Below, piece by piece: positions 744-12,469 of a stretch of DNA of 37,363 nucleotides. The position numbers and the translations under genes were made by a program. The notes beneath the pieces were generated by a model. That model made no database searches and was not told where the DNA came from. It worked only from the letters and a program-made list of their open reading frames with translations. Location of the stretch: positions 1 to 37,363 of the forward strand of contig RECK01000181.1 of assembly GCA_007694055.1 (NCBI GenBank), written 5' to 3'. Within the stretch, counting starts at the first letter, position 1; each line of letters starts with the position of its first letter. The DNA is from Wenzhouxiangella sp. (lineage in GTDB: Bacteria > Pseudomonadota > Gammaproteobacteria > Xanthomonadales > Wenzhouxiangellaceae).

Positions 744-2432
744 TCAGCTCTCGGAACTGCGCGGCTCTCCGAACTGGTCACGCAACTCTCGCCTGAGGAT
801 CTTGCCAACGTTGGTCTTGGGCAGTTCGTCGACAAACTCGACGTACTTGGGTACTTTGTAGCCAGTCAGCTCCTTGCGACAGTGCTCGCGAATTTCCTTG
901 ACCGTCAGGGACGGGTCCTTGCGCACCACGACAACCTTGACCACCTCGCCGGACTTCTCATCGGGCGCGCCGATGGCACCAACCTCGAGCACCTTCGGGT
1001 GGGCCGCGACAACGTCCTCGATCTCGTTCGGATAGACGTTGAAGCCGGATACCAGGATCATGTCCTTCTTCCGATCGACGATGTAGAAGAAACCCTTCTC
1101 GTCCATCTTGGCCATATCGCCGGTCTTCAGCCAGCCGTCATCATCCAGCACCTTGGCCGTCTCTTCCGGGCGGTTCCAGTAGCCCTTCATGACCTGCGGT
1201 CCCTTGACGCACAGCTCTCCGGTTTCGCCCATGGGCTGCGGATTGCCGTCCGCGTCGATGACCTGGCATGAAGTGGACGAAATCGGCAAGCCGATTGCCC
1301 CGTTGTAATCTTCGAGATCCATGGGGTTGATACAGGCCGCCGGCGAGGTTTCGGTAAGGCCATAGGCTTCGATCAAAGGCACGCCGGTCACTTTCTTCCA
1401 CTTCTCGGCCACGGCCCGCTGGACCGCCATGCCACCGCCCAGGGTCATGCGCAGGTTGGAGAAATCGAGCTCGCTGAAGCCGGGTGTATTGAGCAGGCCG
1501 TTGAACAAGGTGTTGACGCCGGTAATGGCGGTGAACTCGACCTTCGAGAGCTCCTTGATGAAGCCCGGCATGTCGCGCGGATTGGTGATCAGCACATTGC
1601 GGCCACCAAACTTGAGGAACACCAGGCAGTTGGCCGTCAAGGCGAAGATATGGTAGAGGGGCAGGGCCGTGATGATGGTCTCCTGGCCCGGGCTGACGCG
1701 ATCACCCAGCCAGGCAGAGGATTGCTGCATGTTCGCTACCATGTTGCCATGGGTCAGCATCGCCCCCTTCGACACGCCGGTGGTACCACCGGTGTATTGG
1801 AGAAACGCCAGGTCGTCATGGCCCAGCTTGGCCGGAGTCAGCGTGGCCCCGGCACCATCGGCCAGCACGCGCTTGAACGGAACCGCACCGGGCAGATCGA
1901 ACTTCGGCACCATCTTCTTGACGTAGCGAAGCACGAAATTCATGATCGCGCCCTTGGGGAAACCAACCATGTCACCCATGGTGGTCAAAATGACGTGCTC
2001 GACCTCGGTATCGTCGATGACCGCCTCGAGCACGTTGGCAAAGTTTTCGATGATGACGATGGCGCGGGCACCGGAATCCTTGAGCTGGTGTTTCAGCTCT
2101 CTGGCCGTGTACAGCGGGTTGGTGTTGACGACCACGAGGCCGGCCCGCAGAGCCCCGAAAACGGCAATGGGATACTGCAGCACGTTGGGCATCATGATGG
2201 CGATACGATCCCCGGGTTTCAGGCCCATGGCCTGCAGCCTGGCCCCGAAGGCCCGACTGTATTCGTCGACCTGACCATAGGTCAGGCTGGCGCCAAAATT
2301 CAAATAGGCAACCTTATCGGCGTATTCCCGGCAACTTTTTTCGATGACCTCGACAACTGAACTGAATTCGTTCATGTCGATCTCGGCAGGCACGTTGGCC
2401 GGATACTGCTCAAGCCACGGATTTTCTGACAT
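744..2432 (-). CDS. fadD: Long-chain-fatty-acid-CoA ligase
   Basis: The enzyme activates fatty acids to acyl-CoA with ATP via an acyl-adenylate, feeding beta-oxidation and membrane lipid pathways; it acts at the inner membrane. The 562-residue protein has the AMP-binding P-loop ([18 protein letters not shown]), the YGLTETSP motif and a FACS signature around [20 protein letters not shown] followed by [14 protein letters not shown] place the start at the ATG at 2432 because the product then begins [18 protein letters not shown], matching the N-terminus of Escherichia coli FadD in pattern, and an AAGGG Shine-Dalgarno lies 8 bases upstream. An in-frame upstream start would add 17 unrelated residues. 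It is divergent from the ligase-CBS gene and convergent with dinB. No FadR site was recognised. Confidence 0.95.
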
Positions 2433-2515
2433 TTGATCTACCCTTTTCATTGGACTTGGACTTCCCAAATCCAAGCTTGGCACAGCTCGGCCCCGGAGAC
2501 AAGCAGGGAACGGAT

Positions 2516-2544
2516 TTGCCCGCGGAACGGCTGGCGTATATCAT
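2516..2544 (+). promoter_or_regulatory. Possible sigma-70 promoter for the ligase-CBS operon
   Basis: TTGCCC (2516-2521) and TATCAT (2539-2544) are separated by 17 bases, and transcription would begin about 30 bases before the ATG at 2582. This spacing supports the 2582 start over the far-upstream TTG. The match is by eye and only moderate. Confidence 0.3.
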
Positions 2545-2581
2545 CGCCAAAACCAACGGCGCGGCGAGAATCCAAAAACCC

Positions 2582-4495
2582 ATGGGCGAACAGAACGTAC
2601 GGCAGACCAGCGACGAAAATACCCGCCGCGCCTTCATGAAGGCGTTGCTTGATGAAGTTCGCGCTCTCGAAGACATGCACCAGAAAGGCATGTTTGAGTC
2701 CGGGGTTCGCTGTATCGGTGCCGAGCAGGAAATGTTCCTGGTCGACCGGGCCGCGCGGCCGGCCCTCACCGCCATGCAGATACTCGAACGCATGGATGAC
2801 CCCAGGTTCACCCATGAACTCGGTCTATTCAATCTCGAAGCCAACCTGTCGCCGCTGGCCCTGGGCGGAGACTGTCTGCGCAAGCTTGAAGCAGAGACCA
2901 ACGAGGTCATGGAGATTGCCCGCAGCAAGGCAGCCGAAGTCGGGAGCCGGGTTGCCCTGGTCGGGATACTGCCAACCCTGACCCGCGAGCATTTGAGCCT
3001 GGATGCGATCGTTCCGACCGCACGTTACTTCGCCCTGAACGAAGCCTTGCTGCGCCTGCGCGGCAGTAATTTCCAGATTTCCATCAAGGGCATCGACCAA
3101 CTCAGCTTCAACCATGACAACCTGATGCTGGAAGCCTGCAATACCAGTTTCCAGATCCATTTCCAGGTTGGGCCCGAAGAATTCGCCCATCTTTACAACA
3201 TCGCCCAGGCCGTGACCGGGCCGCTGCTGGCCGCTTCAGTCAACTCACCCATCCTGCTTGGCAAACGCCTTTGGCACGAAAGCAGGATCGCGGTGTTCGA
3301 GCATTCCATTGATGCCCGCTCCGAGGCTCATGCGGCCCGCGGTCACAAGCCGCGCGTACATTTCGGTGATAACTGGGTAGATGAGTCGGTCATCGAAATC
3401 TTCAAAGAAGACATCGCCCGTTTCCGGGTCATCCTGACCACTGAATTCGAGGATGATCCGATCGGCATGGTGGCCCGGGGAGAAGTACCCAAGCTCAACG
3501 CACTGCGCCTGCACAACGGTACGGTATACCGCTGGAATCGCGCCTGCTACGGCATTTCGGACAATGGCAAACCCCATCTGCGCATCGAGAACCGGGTCAT
3601 CCCGTCGGGTCCGACGGTGCTGGACGAAATCGGCAATGCCGCTTTCTTCTTCGGGATGATGGCCAAGTTGTCGCGCTCCATTGACGACATCCGCGATCAT
3701 CTAAACTTCGCCGACGTCAAATCCAATTTCCTGGCCGCAGCGCGCGAGGGCATACGGGCCCAGCAGGTCTGGTTCGATGACCGCCAGATGACGGCCCAGG
3801 AACTGGTGCTCGACATCCTCCTGCCACTGGCTCGCGAAGGCCTGGCCGAGGCCAATATCGACGGTGACGACATTGATCGCTATCTCGGCGCGGTGCAAAA
3901 GCGGGTCGAGCGCCGGCGCACCGGCGCCCGCTGGCAACTGGAATCGCTGGAAAACATGCGTGGACAAGGCAGTGCCCACGAATGCCACCGGGCCTTGACC
4001 AGCAGCATGATCGAGCAGCAGCAGTCGGGCAAGGGCATCGCCGACTGGGAGCTGGCCGAATTCTGTCGCAGCCAGGACTGGCGCGACAGCTATCGCACGG
4101 TTGGGCAGTTCATGGCAACCGATCTGTTCACGGTCCGCCCGGACGATATTGTTGATTTCGCCGCCAGCCTGATGGAATGGCGCTACGTTCGTCATGTGCC
4201 GGTCGAGGATGATTCAGGACAGTTGCTTGGCCTGGTTTCCCATCGGCAGCTGCTGCGCCTGGTTGCGCGCGGTGGCAAGATGGATCAGACCACCATGGTT
4301 CGGGACATCATGCGTCCTGATCCGCTGTCCGTGAGCCCGGACACGACCACAGTCGAGGCGATCCGCCTGATGCGCGAAAAGCGGCTCAGCTGCCTGCCGG
4401 TGGTCGAGGATGGAAAACTGGTCGGGCTGGTCACCGAGTACGATCTGATCGTTGTCGCGGGCCGCCTGCTGGAAAGCTACCTGGCCGAGGAATGA
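2582..4495 (+). CDS. GCS2-type carboxylate-amine ligase fused to a CBS pair
   Basis: The N-terminal ~500 residues resemble the glutamate-cysteine ligase GCS2 / COG2170 carboxylate-amine ligase family, which joins an amino group to a carboxylate using ATP. Visible family features are GAEQEMFLVD near residue 46, FNLEANLSPL, and LRIENRVIPSGPT near residue 332. The last ~130 residues form two CBS motifs (FMATDLFTVRPDD... and IMRPDPLSVSPDTTTVEAI...), the module that usually binds adenine nucleotides and gates activity. The start at 2582 (MGEQNVRQTSDENT, 637 residues) is inferred from where family-like sequence begins and from a possible promoter just upstream; the frame is open back to a TTG at 2450. 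The Shine-Dalgarno is poor. The stop overlaps the next gene by 4 bp (ATGA). The true substrates are unknown; glutathione synthesis is possible but unproven. Confidence 0.85.
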   Translation: MGEQNVRQTSDENTRRAFMKALLDEVRALEDMHQKGMFESGVRCIGAEQEMFLVDRAARPALTAMQILERMDDPRFTHELGLFNLEANLSPLALGGDCLRKLEAETNEVMEIARSKAAEVGSRVALVGILPTLTREHLSLDAIVPTARYFALNEALLRLRGSNFQISIKGIDQLSFNHDNLMLEACNTSFQIHFQVGPEEFAHLYNIAQAVTGPLLAASVNSPILLGKRLWHESRIAVFEHSIDARSEAHAARGHKPRVHFGDNWVDESVIEIFKEDIARFRVILTTEFEDDPIGMVARGEVPKLNALRLHNGTVYRWNRACYGISDNGKPHLRIENRVIPSGPTVLDEIGNAAFFFGMMAKLSRSIDDIRDHLNFADVKSNFLAAAREGIRAQQVWFDDRQMTAQELVLDILLPLAREGLAEANIDGDDIDRYLGAVQKRVERRRTGARWQLESLENMRGQGSAHECHRALTSSMIEQQQSGKGIADWELAEFCRSQDWRDSYRTVGQFMATDLFTVRPDDIVDFAASLMEWRYVRHVPVEDDSGQLLGLVSHRQLLRLVARGGKMDQTTMVRDIMRPDPLSVSPDTTTVEAIRLMREKRLSCLPVVEDGKLVGLVTEYDLIVVAGRLLESYLAEE

Positions 4496-4971
4496 GCAGG
4501 CACTCACGCCTCGGACAGGCCAGGTTCCTGCCCGTATCTGCCGGCTTGCTTGTACTGTTGCTTGCCATGGTCCTGAGCGCTTGCGCACCGCCCCTGGCCG
4601 ATGAGGAGCAGATTCGCCAGCGCCTTGATGAGATGGTCGATGGTCTTGCCGAGCGCAATGCGCGCGCTGTGCTGGCCCCGCTTGCCGATGATTTCAGCGC
4701 CGAAACCTGGAATCTCGATCCGCGCGGCGTACGTCTGCTGCTGCAGCGCGAGATGCGCGCCCATGAGCGCCTGCGCGCCCGTATTCATGATTTTTCGGTC
4801 GATCTGCACGGCCAGGACCGGGCCAGCGCCGAGTTCCGGGTCATCCTGACCGGCGGCAGTGGGCTGATTCCCGAGCGCGGCCGCTGGTACCGGGTGCGCA
4901 CCGGCTGGCGCCTGGAGGGTTCGGACTGGATGATGATCTCGGCCAGCTGGGAAGACGTGGTTGGGCTGTGA
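4492..4971 (+). CDS. Small lipoprotein, NTF2/SnoaL-like size
   Basis: The 159-residue product has a typical lipoprotein signal: positively charged start, hydrophobic LLVLLLAMVLSAC and lipobox cysteine at residue 31. The mature part begins with a helical stretch (EEQIRQRLDEMVDGLAERNA) followed by predicted beta strands (RASAEFRVILTG, RWYRVRTGWRLEG, DWMMISASWED). That order, one helix bundle then a curved sheet ending in a tryptophan-rich strand, resembles NTF2-like folds, but I recognise no named family. It starts inside the last codons of the ligase gene (ATGA overlap), and its own stop overlaps the helicase start (GTGA), so all three are probably translated together. Function unknown. Confidence 0.85.
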   Translation: MSRHSRLGQARFLPVSAGLLVLLLAMVLSACAPPLADEEQIRQRLDEMVDGLAERNARAVLAPLADDFSAETWNLDPRGVRLLLQREMRAHERLRARIHDFSVDLHGQDRASAEFRVILTGGSGLIPERGRWYRVRTGWRLEGSDWMMISASWEDVVGL

Positions 4972-7900
4972 CCCGGCCCCGGGGCAACGGCGAGCGTTTG
5001 CCTGATGAGGTGCTGGCGCCACGAATCAGGCGCTGGTTCCGGAAACGATACGGACAACCCACCGCGATTCAAATGCTGGCCTGGCCTGCAATCGCCAGCG
5101 GCGACCACGTGCTGGTCACCGGGGCAACGGGCAGCGGCAAGTCACTCGCCGCCTGGCTGCCACTGCTCTCACGCCTGTCTCCAGGCTCCGCAAATACCGG
5201 CGTGCGCCTGCTCTACGTCTCGCCACTGCGCGCCCTGTCTCGCGACATGGCCGAGGGCGTTGAGGATTGTCTGCAGGGCCTGGCCAGTCTGACGCCCGAC
5301 GCCGGCGCGCCCTTGCGGATTGGGGTGCGCACCGGCGATACCTCGCCGTCAGAGCGCGCTGCCCAGCGCCGTTGTCCACCGGACATTCTGCTGACCACAC
5401 CGGAAACCCTGTTCGTGCTGCTGGGCAGTCGCGGCGGACGCAATATGCTGCGCCAGGTGGGTGGAGTGATCATCGACGAAATTCATGCCCTGGCAGGCAA
5501 CAAGCGCGGTGCTCACCTGGCCCTGTCACTGGAGCGCCTGCAGCAGCTCAGCCGCGAGCCGTTGCAGCGCATCGGACTTTCTGCCACGGCCAGGCCAAGG
5601 CGCCTGGTGGCCGGATTCCTGGCCGGGGCAGGGCGGTCCTGCCAAATCGTGGCTGATACACGAAGCCCGCCGCCAGCGCTCTCGCTGGAAATACCTGACA
5701 CACCGCTGGGAACGTTTGCCCATGCCGGTCACTGGGCCTTCGCCGCAACTCGCCTGGGTGAACTGGGCCGGCAAGAGGGCACCATGCTGGTGTTCTGCAA
5801 TACCCGGGCCCAGGTCGAGCGCGTCGCGGCGCTGCTGGATGAATTACTGCCCCCGGAAACACTGGCCGTGCATCATGGCAGCGTTGGACGCCAGCGCCGG
5901 GAAACGGTGGAGCGGGGCCTCAAGCAAGGCAGCATCAAGGTCGTGGTCTGCTCGTCTTCGCTGGAGCTGGGAATTGACATCGGCATGCTGGATCGCGTCT
6001 GCCAGCTCGGCGCCCCCCGTGCCATCAATGAGGCGCGCCAACGGGCCGGGCGGGCACGCCACCGCCCCGGTGCCGTGCCGCGTCTTTATGCTTTCCCGCT
6101 AACCCTGTCCGATCTGCTCGACTGGCACGGCCTGGCCCGGGCACTGGGTAGCGCACAGATTGACGCGCTCCGGCCCTGCATGGCGCCGGTCGATGTGCTG
6201 TGCCAGCACCTTGTCGCCATGGTTGCTGCCGGTCATGATCAGGTTAGCGACATTCACCGCCTGGTCTCGCGTGCCTATCCATGGCGTAAACTTCATCGAT
6301 CCAGGCTGGATCGAATCCTGATCATGCTGCATGACGGCTTTGTCCCCGGCCGGGAAACCGGGCGCGGCCCGTTAACCCGAATGGACAGCGAACGGCTCGT
6401 CGCCGCTGCCGATGCAGCCAGCATGACCCTGCTCAATGCCGGAACCATTCCGGAGTGGTTCGAGTACGAAGTGGTCGCAGCAGGGCAGGGGCAACGCCTG
6501 GGCAAGCTGGACGAGGAGTTCGCCTTCGAATCCTCGCCTGGCCAGATTCTCCAGCTGGGCGGACAGAACTGGCGCATCCTGAGCGTCCTGCCCGGCCGGG
6601 TTGAAGTCGAGCATGCCGGCGACGAGACACCCAATCTTCCGTTCTGGTTCGGTGACGGTGCCGGTCGCAGTGCCGGCATGTCCCGCCAGATCGCAGCGCT
6701 GTGCCGGGCAGCCGGTCGCGGTCACCTGCCCGCAGAGCAGCAGCTGGCAAACTGGCTGGCAGAAAGTCGAGCCAGTCTCGGCCGTCTACCGGACGACCGA
6801 ACCATCGTTTTAGAGCGTTTCTTCGATCCCTCCGGCGATCAGCACCTGGTCATCCACAGTCTGTTCGGTGCCAGAGTGAACCGGGCCTGGGGCCTGGCCT
6901 TGCGGAAACGCTTTTGTCGTGGCTTCAACTTCGAGCTCCAGGCCGCCGCAACCGACAACGGTGTCCTGATCTCGCTGGGCGCGGTACACAGCTTCGACCT
7001 GGAGTCGGTCACCGGCTGGCTCAAATCGGACCAGATCGAAGACCTGCTGATCCAGGCCATGCTGGATACGCCGGTATTCCAGACCCGGCTGCGCTGGTGC
7101 GCCAACACCGCCCTGGCCATTCAGCGGCGTGACTTCCAGGGTCCGGTGCCGCCGCAGGTGCAGCGCAACCAGATCGAGAACCTGATCGCCAGGATATTTC
7201 CCGACCAGCTCGCCTGCCTGGAGAACCTCAGCGGCGATCGCCGGGTTCCCGATCATCCATTGGTCGAACAGGCCTTGTCCGACTGCCTGACAGAGCACCT
7301 GGACCTGAACGGCCTGGTTCGCCTTTATCGGCGCCTGGAGAATGGCTTGATCCACGTTCATGCCATTGATACTGCAACACCCTCGAGCCTGGCCATGGCG
7401 CTGGTCCATGCGCCACGCAACAGCTTCCTGGATCCGGCCGCGGCCGAGGAACGGCGAACTCGCAGTTTCGAACGCCACCCGGAACGCATGGCGCGTGCCC
7501 CGGCGCGCGTGCCTGCCAGACCACAGGGCCCGCGACCGTCTCTGAGTGCCGATCGGTTCGAACAGCAACTCCTCGCTGCAGGCTACCTGTTACCCGTGGA
7601 AGCCGAGCGCCAGGCGCTGGGGGGTGCCTTTCTGAGGTTGGTGCGCTTGCGCCTGGCAGTCAGCCTGCACACTGATACGGGACGCTGCCTCTGGGTCCAT
7701 GTTCAGCGTCTGGACGAAGCGCTTGCCATCTGGCCCGCAGCACGCCTGCAGCCGCTGTTGCCGGCCGCGCTGAAACCGCCCCCTGTCGACGACCCGGACG
7801 AAGCCTTGTGCCGCATACTGCTGGGCCGCTGCCGTCTGCTGGAAACACTGGAGACGGGAACGCTGGCCGACGAATCAGGCCTGTCGCAGGCATGCGTGGC

Positions 7901-8006
7901 CGCAGCACTTGCCCGTCTGCGCGCCGAAGGCATTCTGAGTCGCCGGGAACAGGCCGGCAAGGAACTGTGGACAGAAAGAAAACCCGCGACGACTGCCGCG
8001 GGTTGA
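4968..8006 (+). CDS. lhr: Lhr-like superfamily 2 helicase
   Basis: This is an ATP-dependent DNA helicase of the Lhr type, associated with DNA repair and recombination. Of its 1012 residues, the first ~400 are two RecA-like domains with Q-motif-like GQPTAIQMLAWPAI, Walker A GATGSGKS (52-59), motif Ib TTPETL, DEIH Walker B, motif III SATARP, and motif VI QRAGRARHRPG. The rest fits the winged-helix plus beta-barrel 'Lhr-core' region, and ends in a second winged-helix-like stretch (LADESGLSQACVAAALARLRAEG, read in two halves). It is shorter than full-length bacterial Lhr (about 1500 residues), so it lacks the large C-terminal extension. It starts at a GTG overlapping the lipoprotein stop by 4 bp. 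It is not next to a ligase or exonuclease gene, unlike the ligase-associated Lhr subgroup. The last codons contain the terminator of the opposing cox operon. Confidence 0.88.
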   Translation: MTRPRGNGERLPDEVLAPRIRRWFRKRYGQPTAIQMLAWPAIASGDHVLVTGATGSGKSLAAWLPLLSRLSPGSANTGVRLLYVSPLRALSRDMAEGVEDCLQGLASLTPDAGAPLRIGVRTGDTSPSERAAQRRCPPDILLTTPETLFVLLGSRGGRNMLRQVGGVIIDEIHALAGNKRGAHLALSLERLQQLSREPLQRIGLSATARPRRLVAGFLAGAGRSCQIVADTRSPPPALSLEIPDTPLGTFAHAGHWAFAATRLGELGRQEGTMLVFCNTRAQVERVAALLDELLPPETLAVHHGSVGRQRRETVERGLKQGSIKVVVCSSSLELGIDIGMLDRVCQLGAPRAINEARQRAGRARHRPGAVPRLYAFPLTLSDLLDWHGLARALGSAQIDALRPCMAPVDVLCQHLVAMVAAGHDQVSDIHRLVSRAYPWRKLHRSRLDRILIMLHDGFVPGRETGRGPLTRMDSERLVAAADAASMTLLNAGTIPEWFEYEVVAAGQGQRLGKLDEEFAFESSPGQILQLGGQNWRILSVLPGRVEVEHAGDETPNLPFWFGDGAGRSAGMSRQIAALCRAAGRGHLPAEQQLANWLAESRASLGRLPDDRTIVLERFFDPSGDQHLVIHSLFGARVNRAWGLALRKRFCRGFNFELQAAATDNGVLISLGAVHSFDLESVTGWLKSDQIEDLLIQAMLDTPVFQTRLRWCANTALAIQRRDFQGPVPPQVQRNQIENLIARIFPDQLACLENLSGDRRVPDHPLVEQALSDCLTEHLDLNGLVRLYRRLENGLIHVHAIDTATPSSLAMALVHAPRNSFLDPAAAEERRTRSFERHPERMARAPARVPARPQGPRPSLSADRFEQQLLAAGYLLPVEAERQALGGAFLRLVRLRLAVSLHTDTGRCLWVHVQRLDEALAIWPAARLQPLLPAALKPPPVDDPDEALCRILLGRCRLLETLETGTLADESGLSQACVAAALARLRAEGILSRREQAGKELWTERKPATTAAG
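7981..8004 (-). terminator. Rho-independent terminator of the cta (cox) operon, inside the helicase 3' end
   Basis: AACCCGCG (7981-7988) and CGCGGGTT (7997-8004) form a perfect 8-bp stem with an 8-base loop. Read on the minus strand, the stem is followed at once by TTTTCTTTCT, a good terminator tail for transcripts leaving ctaE. On the plus strand the following sequence is only moderately T-rich. The stem includes the last helicase codons and the first base of its stop codon. Confidence 0.75.
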
Positions 8007-8070
8007 TTGCTCTTGTTGTGTTTGTATTCGAGGCCAGTATTCAAGGCGCGGCAGATGCCGCGCCATGCGG

Positions 8071-8931
8071 TCAGATCACGTAAACGAAGATGAACAGGCC
8101 GAGCCAGACCACGTCGACAAAGTGCCAGTACCAGGCTGCCGCCTCGAACCCGAAATGGTTCTTCTTGGTGAAATGCCCAAAGGCACAGCGGATGGTGATC
8201 ACGATCAGCATCAGGGTGCCAATGATCACGTGCAGGCCGTGGAAGCCGGTCAGCATGAAGAAAGTCGATCCGTAAATTCCGGACCCGAGCGTCAGACCTA
8301 ATTCGCGGTAGGCGTAGACGTATTCGTAACCCTGAATAAACAGGAAGATACAGGCCAGCACAATGGTGGCCAGCATCCAGACAATCAGGGCACCGCGCTG
8401 GGCGCGCTTCAAAGCCCAATGGGCCAGGGTGATGGTGATTCCCGAGGTCAACAGGATGAGGGTATTGATCAAGGGCAGACCAAAGCCCGGGATGGTCTGG
8501 AAGTCGCCACCGAGCTCGGCCGGGCCATGGGTTGGCCACACTGCCTCGAAGCCGGGATAGAGCAGGGCGTTGGTCATGGCACCGGTACCTTCCCCGCCCA
8601 GCCATGGCACGGAAAACATCCGCGCGTAGAACAAGGCGCCGAAGAATGCAGCGAAGAACATGACTTCTGAAAAGATGAACCAGACCATGCCGTGGCGGAA
8701 GGACAGGTCCACCGCGCTGTTGTACATGCCGGCCTGCGATTCACGGACCACGTCGGCAAACCAGCCGAAGATCATCACCAGGATGATTGCAGAGCCCAGC
8801 GCGAACAGCCACGGTCCGGTCGGACCCTGATTGAGCCAGTTGGCTGCACCAATCGCGAAAAGGAACAAGCCGACTGACCCTACGATCGGCCACTTGGCGG
8901 TATGCGGAACGTAATAGCTGCTCTGTGCCAT
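8071..8931 (-). CDS. ctaE: Cytochrome c oxidase subunit III
   Basis: Subunit III of the haem-copper oxidase stabilises the catalytic core and the proton-uptake path; it lies in the inner membrane. From the ATG at 8931 the product is 286 residues, starting MAQSSYYVPHTAKWPIVGS, with an AAGGGAG Shine-Dalgarno about 10 bases upstream. The open frame continues upstream to 9180, but that part overlaps ctaG and has no family similarity. Seven hydrophobic segments are visible, as are the typical MVWFIFSEVMFFAAFFGALF and FFMLTGFHGLHVIIGT stretches. It is the last gene of the operon and is followed by a strong terminator. Neither SURF1, ctaA nor ctaB follows it here. Confidence 0.96.
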   Translation of the reverse strand: MAQSSYYVPHTAKWPIVGSVGLFLFAIGAANWLNQGPTGPWLFALGSAIILVMIFGWFADVVRESQAGMYNSAVDLSFRHGMVWFIFSEVMFFAAFFGALFYARMFSVPWLGGEGTGAMTNALLYPGFEAVWPTHGPAELGGDFQTIPGFGLPLINTLILLTSGITITLAHWALKRAQRGALIVWMLATIVLACIFLFIQGYEYVYAYRELGLTLGSGIYGSTFFMLTGFHGLHVIIGTLMLIVITIRCAFGHFTKKNHFGFEAAAWYWHFVDVVWLGLFIFVYVI

Positions 8932-11326: not shown

Positions 11327-12469
11327 TCAGCCCTGATTCAATTCGGCGATGGTAGACGGCTGGACGACCTCGCCCTCGTCGTCGCTCCAGGCGTTACGGG
11401 TGTAGGTTAGCGCCGCGGCGATATCCTGCGGCTGCAGACGGCCACCAAAGGCGGTCATGGCCGTGCCTTCACGTCCGTTCAGAACGATATCGAGGTGGGC
11501 CGTCAACTCACCGGTAGGCTGACCGTCCCGGGCCAGGGCCGGGAAGGCAGGCTCCAGACCGCTGCCGTCGGGCTGATGACAGGCCGCACATTGGGCCTGG
11601 TAGACGTTGGCGCCGTGATCCATCAATTCGGCGCGCGTCCACAGGCGGGCAGACTCATGGGCCGTATCGGCCATGCCCTGGCGCTGGCTGGCAACCCAGG
11701 CGTCGTATTCCTCGCGCGATACCGCTTCAACCACGATCGGCATGAAACCATGATCCTTGCCGCACAGTTCAGCGCACTGACCCCGGTAAACGCCTTCTTC
11801 CAGGATGTAGGTCCAGGCCTCATTGACCATGCCCGGGATGGCATCGCGCTTCCAGCCCAGGTCAGGAACCCACCAGGAGTGGATCACGTCATCGGCGGTG
11901 AGGAGAAAGCGGATCCGCGTATTGACGGGCACGACCAGGCGGTTGTCCACTTCAAGCAGGTAGTTTTCGACGTCGCGCGGGTTGATGCCCGAACCGATCT
12001 GGCGAGCCCGGTTGCTTTCGCGGTCAAGCGCGGAGAAGAAGCTGATCTCGTCTTCCAGGTAGTCGTATTTCCACAACCATTGATAGCCGGTGATCTTGAT
12101 GTTCATTTCGGCACCACCGGTCTGCTCCATGTCGATCAGAACCCGGGTTGCCGGTATCGCCATGACCACCAGGATCAGGACCGGGATCGCCGTCCAGATA
12201 ATCTCCGCCTTGGTTGAGTGGGAGAAGCTGGCAGGCTTGTAGCCCTTGGATTTGCGGTGCACGACAATCGACGTGAACATGGCAGTAAAGACCAGCACGC
12301 CGATAACGGTCACAATCCCCAGAATGGTGTTGTGCAGCTGATACACATCATGGCTGTACGGCGTGACCCCTCGCGGCATGTTGTCACCAACGGCGAAGAC
12401 GCCCCAGGTAATCACCACGATCACGGCCAGAACGGCCAGTCCTACGATCAGTTCGTTGGTTCTCTTCAT
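11327..12469 (-). CDS. ctaC: Cytochrome c oxidase subunit II with fused cytochrome c domain (caa3 type)
   Basis: Subunit II accepts electrons from cytochrome c through the binuclear CuA centre. The 380-residue protein starts with a hydrophobic segment (about 8-27, signal or membrane anchor), has two further membrane helices (about 46-70 and 88-110), then the cupredoxin domain with CuA ligands H197, C232, E234, C236, H240 and M243 (in [14 protein letters not shown]). A class I cytochrome c domain is fused at the C-terminus, with haem motif C294-AAC297-H298 and probable axial M338 (GTAMTAFG), so the oxidase is caa3-like. The ATG at 12469 follows an AGGTG Shine-Dalgarno. It is the first gene of the operon; the 158-bp gap upstream should hold its promoter, though I see only a weak TAAAAT-type -10 candidate. 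Confidence 0.97.

Follow-up and report, generated by a model that had tools for sequence, protein, structure and literature searches.

A GCS2-type ligase fused to a CBS pair in Wenzhouxiangella, its lipoprotein neighbour and a candidate opposing hydrolase

This work deals with a set of three genes in Wenzhouxiangella sp. (NCBI GenBank assembly GCA_007694055.1), found on a stretch of 37,363 nucleotides (contig RECK01000181.1, positions 1 to 37,363 of the forward strand) that was analysed as a whole and is called here the window. The first gene (2582..4495, + strand, 637 residues) encodes a protein in which a putative amide ligase of GCS2 fold (approximately residues 1-485) is joined to a CBS pair at the C-terminus (approximately residues 505-637; 4094..4492). 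It is followed on the same strand by the gene of an NTF2-like lipoprotein (4492..4971, 159 residues) and by that of an Lhr-type SF2 helicase (4968..8006, 1012 residues). The sequence ATGA at 4492..4495 contains the TGA stop of the ligase and the ATG start of the lipoprotein, and GTGA at 4968..4971 contains the TGA stop of the lipoprotein and the GTG start of the helicase, so the gene set and the two 4-base overlaps reported in an earlier note on this DNA are confirmed. The ligase start at 2582 is supported by the consensus of 55 relatives, which begins there with MGE; a longer frame from the TTG at 2450 is a possible alternative. The GTG start of the helicase is less certain, because 10 relatives become similar only from residues 11-23 onward, and TTG and GTG codons in the same frame lie further downstream. 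The nearest named relatives belong to Wenzhouxiangella.

The surroundings of the ligase were compared within the order and within the class. The search of the order gave 81 matches in 79 of 151 genomes, and neighbourhoods were collected for all the matches and the window, except for a 71-residue fragment in G038, which is counted as ligase-only, and a weak second match in G070. Because one locus (L109, genome G010) holds a stand-alone paralogue with 34% identity, there are 78 fusion-type loci in the order, or 79 with L130, from family f17 outside the order (f numbers denote families here); three loci cut by contig ends (L073, L089, L182) are counted as fusions by homology. Relatives at E 1e-40 are present in 132 of 369 genomes of the class, including the window's genome and a second genome with the fusion (G155); in the other 130 no match extends past query residue 521, i.e. 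through the CBS pair. From these 132 genomes 30 loci were fetched, 29 with the stand-alone form and one with the fusion.

The ligase domain matches PF04107 (GCS2) at 27.8 bits (cut-off 21; E 2e-6). In the 25 families listed out of 29, no NCBIfam ligase model comes near its cut-off, the best scores being those of PRK13517 (26.8 bits, cut-off 332) and EgtA (23.1 bits, cut-off 370.8). The AlphaFold2 model, with a predicted local distance difference test score (pLDDT) of 91, has the fold of YbdK and of the glutamate-cysteine ligases (GCLs): its best structural neighbours are the Salmonella YbdK homologue (Z 40.0), YbdK (1r8g; Z 39.6) and plant GCL (Z 33.1), although identity in the aligned part is only 14% with YbdK and 19% with plant GCL. 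A GhExE metal/ATP signature is described for the GCS2/PafA superfamily (PMC2588565). This motif of the carboxylate-amine ligases is matched by G46-A-E48-Q-E50 (codons 2717..2731, + strand), and among the residues invariant in the alignment of 55 ligase sequences are G46, E48, E50, E86, Q191, H193, W231, R235, R334, E336 and R338. What sets the protein apart from YbdK-type enzymes is the CBS pair that it carries, together with its distance from the NCBIfam models. The same fold and motif would also be compatible with a hydrolase, as Dop is beside PafA, and both of these proteins appear, with other GCLs, among the further structural matches (Z about 17-22). Since the matches to YbdK and plant GCL are far stronger (Z 40 and 33), it is most improbable that the domain is a hydrolase.

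The two CBS motifs are matched at E 5.7e-30, and the fold of the pair is confirmed in the model. The fusion, which the earlier note had regarded as an uncommon architecture, is therefore real as well as uncommon, and it is conserved: the mean majority frequency of residues is 0.76 in the CBS pair and 0.75 in the ligase core. The CBS nucleotide motif is G-h-h-[ST]-x-x-D. The second CBS motif agrees with it, with T/S618 and D621 kept in all 59 sequences, whereas the site of the first is degenerate, with G550 and S/T553 kept and a variable position 556. Among near structural matches of the pair are CBSX2 with AMP (Z 17.7) and AcuB with AMP, ADP or ATP (Z about 17). The likeness to these proteins consists of the CBS-pair fold (Z 17-18, 27-37% identity) and the conserved second site; to our knowledge, neither of them has a GCS2-type ligase attached. 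It is thus plausible, judging from fold and residues, that the pair senses adenine nucleotides, and the nucleotide binding behind the adenylate-responsive ligase of the earlier note gains support, while an effect on activity is a prediction. In a tree made by a quick method the fusions cluster together. The two changes counted on it reduce to one, since the sole apparent exception, L108, labelled as stand-alone, is a fusion truncated on the 5' side by the contig end; L109, L129 and L134 have long branches and their placement is unsure. The CBS fusion therefore probably arose once.

The second gene of the set encodes a protein whose lipobox (LSAC in the window) is found in 40 of 42 lipoproteins, with Cys31 invariant in the 41 that were aligned. 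Its AlphaFold2 model (pLDDT 90.5) has an NTF2-like fold, and the top Foldseek matches include NTF2-like and cystatin-like-fold proteins at E about 1e-6; all the Pfam matches are below cut-off, such as SnoaL_2 (21.3 of 27 bits). The residue that follows the cysteine is Ala, which according to the rule known from E. coli points to the outer membrane, and because of it the lipoprotein is probably destined for that membrane. A profile search placed the gene downstream of the fused ligase at 48 of the 79 loci, in five families (f1, 20/25; f8, 22/24; f5, 4/4; f10, 1/1; and L130 of f17, 1/1), and some of the misses are due to contig ends (L072, L073, L089). The same search found it in none of 30 stand-alone loci (the 29 of the class and L109). 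The lipoprotein is thus a steadier neighbour of the ligase-CBS protein than the helicase is.

The helicase, with its DEAD, Helicase_C, WH_Lhr and DEAD_assoc domains, has an SF2 core and reaches 440 bits against NF007284 (PRK09751 ATP-dependent helicase), which does not pass the cut-off of 1496; we take PRK09751 to be the Lhr of E. coli. It is directly next in 27 of 78 order loci, all of them in f1 (13/25) and f8 (14/24), separated by one gene in two additional f8 loci and 4.7-6.3 kb away in three loci. In 51 of the 78 it adjoins neither the ligase nor the lipoprotein, a few of these loci being cut by contig ends. The helicases of the window's own family have 1006-1050 residues, whereas 13 uncut f8 orthologues (e.g. 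L079, L092, L094) have 1431-1455; three uncut ones align with the window's helicase over residues 18-1005 at about 41% identity and then extend further. E. coli Lhr is reported to act as a uracil-DNA glycosylase and to have 600-700 additional residues (PMC10953399). The genome encodes a second Lhr-like helicase (G000:C30:1945-3780, 818-residue frame, 31% identity). A frame of 648 residues in L104 that clustered with the Lhr proteins was rejected, as it does not match the window's helicase.

From the overlaps the earlier note had deduced coupled translation, and it considered a shared role in stress or damage response, so that the three genes would be one unit co-translated through them. The same order, with the helicase directly next, recurs in f8 as well as in f1, which means that the three genes are neighbours in another lineage too. 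Besides, a scan of 2300-8200 for terminator-like sites gave none on the + strand between the ligase and lipoprotein genes, and repair roles of Lhr proteins have been published (PMC7437997, PMC10953399). Against this, the helicase stands beside the ligase in none of the 29 loci of f5, f7, f9 and f10. Overlaps of this kind are ordinary in these genomes and not above chance expectation, because exactly the -4 arrangement is also shown by 37 of the 230 remaining pairs of same-strand neighbours that lie at most 300 bp apart in the window and 60 loci (70 of 230 show any overlap); these counts use longest open reading frame starts and are approximate. Of the ligase-lipoprotein pairs called, 20 of 42 keep the exact 4-base overlap. 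Of the lipoprotein-helicase pairs only 2 of 22 do so, those of the window and of L050, a relative with 95% identity, and the exact overlap with the helicase is therefore a local feature. Coupling to the helicase thus finds no support, and no evidence for a joint stress or damage response turned up, expression tests not having been run. A single stress unit of three genes seems very unlikely and, on present data, the helicase is a lineage-limited bystander and the loosest part of the set.

As for signals around the genes, a terminator-like hairpin on both strands at 7981..8004 may mark the end of the unit; it is a weak candidate, with 6 such sites in 2300-8200 against 3.7 expected. The promoter scan gave one site, at 2516-2544, against 0.8 expected, which is uninformative. 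In f9 a transporter gene lies directly upstream of the ligase in 23 of 23 loci (L102-L107, L166-L182), and so it does in L130 (1/1), where it matches CitMHS and TrkA_C; the f9 transporters are its relatives, L130 and six f9 loci being 53-60% identical. Elsewhere in the window, on the - strand, a frame at 11327-12469 reads as a cytochrome oxidase subunit II with an apparent C-terminal CxxCH cytochrome c domain, judging from its translation.

Related to the function of the ligase, one proposal is that it is the cell's own GCL placed under adenylate control, which would supply glutathione synthesis. The GCL superfamily fold and the catalytic motif fit this role, a gshB-like GSH-S_ATP gene is present in the window's genome (C424), and in one genome with the ligase (G064) the PF04107 match reaches only 4.0e-38. 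The genomes themselves speak against it: the window's genome has a separate plant-type GCL (G000:C104; PF04107 E 4.8e-90) of the same superfamily, which passes the TIGR01436 equivalog model (651.3 bits, cut-off 463.15), whereas the ligase-CBS protein passes no curated GCL model, TIGR01436 included. No PF04262 match was found in this genome. The ligase occurs in 79 genomes of the order, and in 75 of these the best PF04107 match has E <1e-50, far stronger than the 2e-6 of the ligase-CBS protein. The stand-alone form is likewise accompanied by a dedicated GCL in 28 of 29 genomes, of which 13 have one of the PF04262 type, 15 a complete PF08886 gene (both occur in G458) and G304 a strong PF04107 gene; the sole genome that lacks one, G432, is 72% complete. 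Because of these separate GCLs a role in glutathione synthesis, or the thiol role behind the profiling proposed earlier, is unlikely. The ligase-CBS protein is probably not the glutathione ligase, and the chance that it is appears slight indeed.

A better lead comes from the stand-alone relatives, which are also found in 7 genomes outside the class and are named 'glutamate-cysteine ligase family protein' in Streptomyces and Tsukamurella. With a median length of 477 residues, these proteins are mostly 34-42% identical to the window's ligase (28-42% over 28 rows). They differ from it in that the 29 class loci contain neither a CBS pair nor the lipoprotein, and in 20 of the 29 a hydrolase of the AstE/AspA type is encoded directly downstream (3.7 kb away in one more); the AstE/AspA, MurU and AmgK families were tested on the proteins of locus L112. 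Among the plasmid relatives in Streptomyces, Tsukamurella and Natrinema (Nonomuraea left out), no annotated AstE/AspA or MurU neighbour was seen within 6 kb. The window's genome has a hydrolase of this type (G000:C272:4834-5826, locus L146), which matches AstE_AspA_cat at 45.3 bits (cut-off 25); no solved-structure sequence matches it at E 0.01. Among the 151 genomes of the order, 67 have the hydrolase and 79 the ligase: both are present in 66, the ligase only in 13, the hydrolase only in 1 and neither in 71 (Fisher p 2.8e-28, ignoring relatedness). The genome with only the hydrolase, G017 (f7), is a draft of 460 contigs. In 15 of the 16 hydrolase loci fetched (L146-L161) the gene is transcribed divergently from those of an ABC transporter (an ATPase, a permease and two others), presumably Gld-like. 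The AstE/AspA-like hydrolase is the best functional lead and suggests that an amide bond is made and taken apart.

One place where such a bond could occur is the cell wall. According to this proposal, ligase and hydrolase would take part in wall recycling, where they would make or break a gamma-glutamyl bond in some wall peptide, and the lipoprotein would sense or bind wall fragments outside. Of the 29 stand-alone loci (within the series L110-L139), 15 have a gene of the MurU type upstream of the ligase and 8 have one for an AmgK-like kinase. The MurU of L112, the one tested, passes the NCBIfam equivalog model (322.6 bits, cut-off 250) and the remaining 14 owe their name to clustering with it, but the AmgK match of the same locus is under its cut-off (295 of 550). 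The fold of the lipoprotein matches Bdellovibrio Bd1075, which we take to be a wall carboxypeptidase, among many NTF2-like proteins, and matches of this fold are unspecific. Furthermore, neither MurU nor AmgK was found near the hydrolase in the 16 order loci or near the ligase in 79 loci. A role in wall recycling is thus doubtful.

The reading preferred here, to which a probability of about 0.5 is given, is that the CBS-fused GCS2 ligase, with the lipoprotein beside it, serves nucleotide-tuned formation of an amide bond, opposed by the AstE/AspA-like hydrolase. A ligase of GCS2 fold would have gained a CBS pair, with an NTF2-like lipoprotein accompanying it in most families except f9. By analogy with its superfamily, the enzyme would activate a carboxylate with ATP, possibly the gamma-carboxylate of a glutamyl group, and join it to an amine; the second CBS site would bind an adenine nucleotide and so tune this activity to the energy state. 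The bond would then probably be cleaved by the hydrolase, which is encoded elsewhere in the genome and which, in other Gammaproteobacteria, lies next to the stand-alone ligase.

Several observations weigh against this interpretation. The Asp at position 556 of the first CBS site is present in only 6 of 59 sequences, which leaves one canonical site at most, and no PDB sequence matches the ligase profile at E 0.01. The lipoprotein is absent from f9 (0/23) and f7 (0/1) even though the CBS pair is there (it is present in 22 of the 23 f9 loci and the remaining one is cut by the contig end). In the order the hydrolase lies apart from the ligase, about 15 kb away in eight f9 genomes and elsewhere farther or on other contigs. 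The 13 genomes with the ligase and without the hydrolase include all 4 sampled genomes of f5, and the co-presence of both genes tracks the families closely, so that it represents few independent events. Finally, three of the 79 genomes with the ligase (G094, 99% complete, G133 and G143) show no PF04107 match elsewhere, so no other GCL of this type was seen in them, a point in favour of a glutathione role.

In a wider and decidedly more speculative form, with the odds well against it, a nucleotide-gated gamma-glutamyl ligase and the AstE/AspA-like hydrolase would act as a pair that makes and breaks an undescribed metabolite, perhaps in wall recycling as the MurU neighbours hint; the Wenzhouxiangella lineage would have moved the control into the ligase as a CBS pair and added the envelope NTF2-like lipoprotein as an outside partner. 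A search of the open-access literature, with most subscription papers outside its scope, found nothing on a CBS-GCS2 fusion or on a GCS2 and AstE/AspA pair. What makes these results significant is that a GCS2-type family with a wide distribution, some of whose records bear the name glutamate-cysteine ligase family protein, is probably not a glutathione ligase, because it is accompanied by dedicated GCLs and by an AstE/AspA-like hydrolase. Caution is therefore advisable when glutathione synthesis is deduced from a GCS2 annotation. The product of this family becomes a concrete question, which the CBS fusion makes approachable through the nucleotide-dependent activity that may be looked for in one protein.

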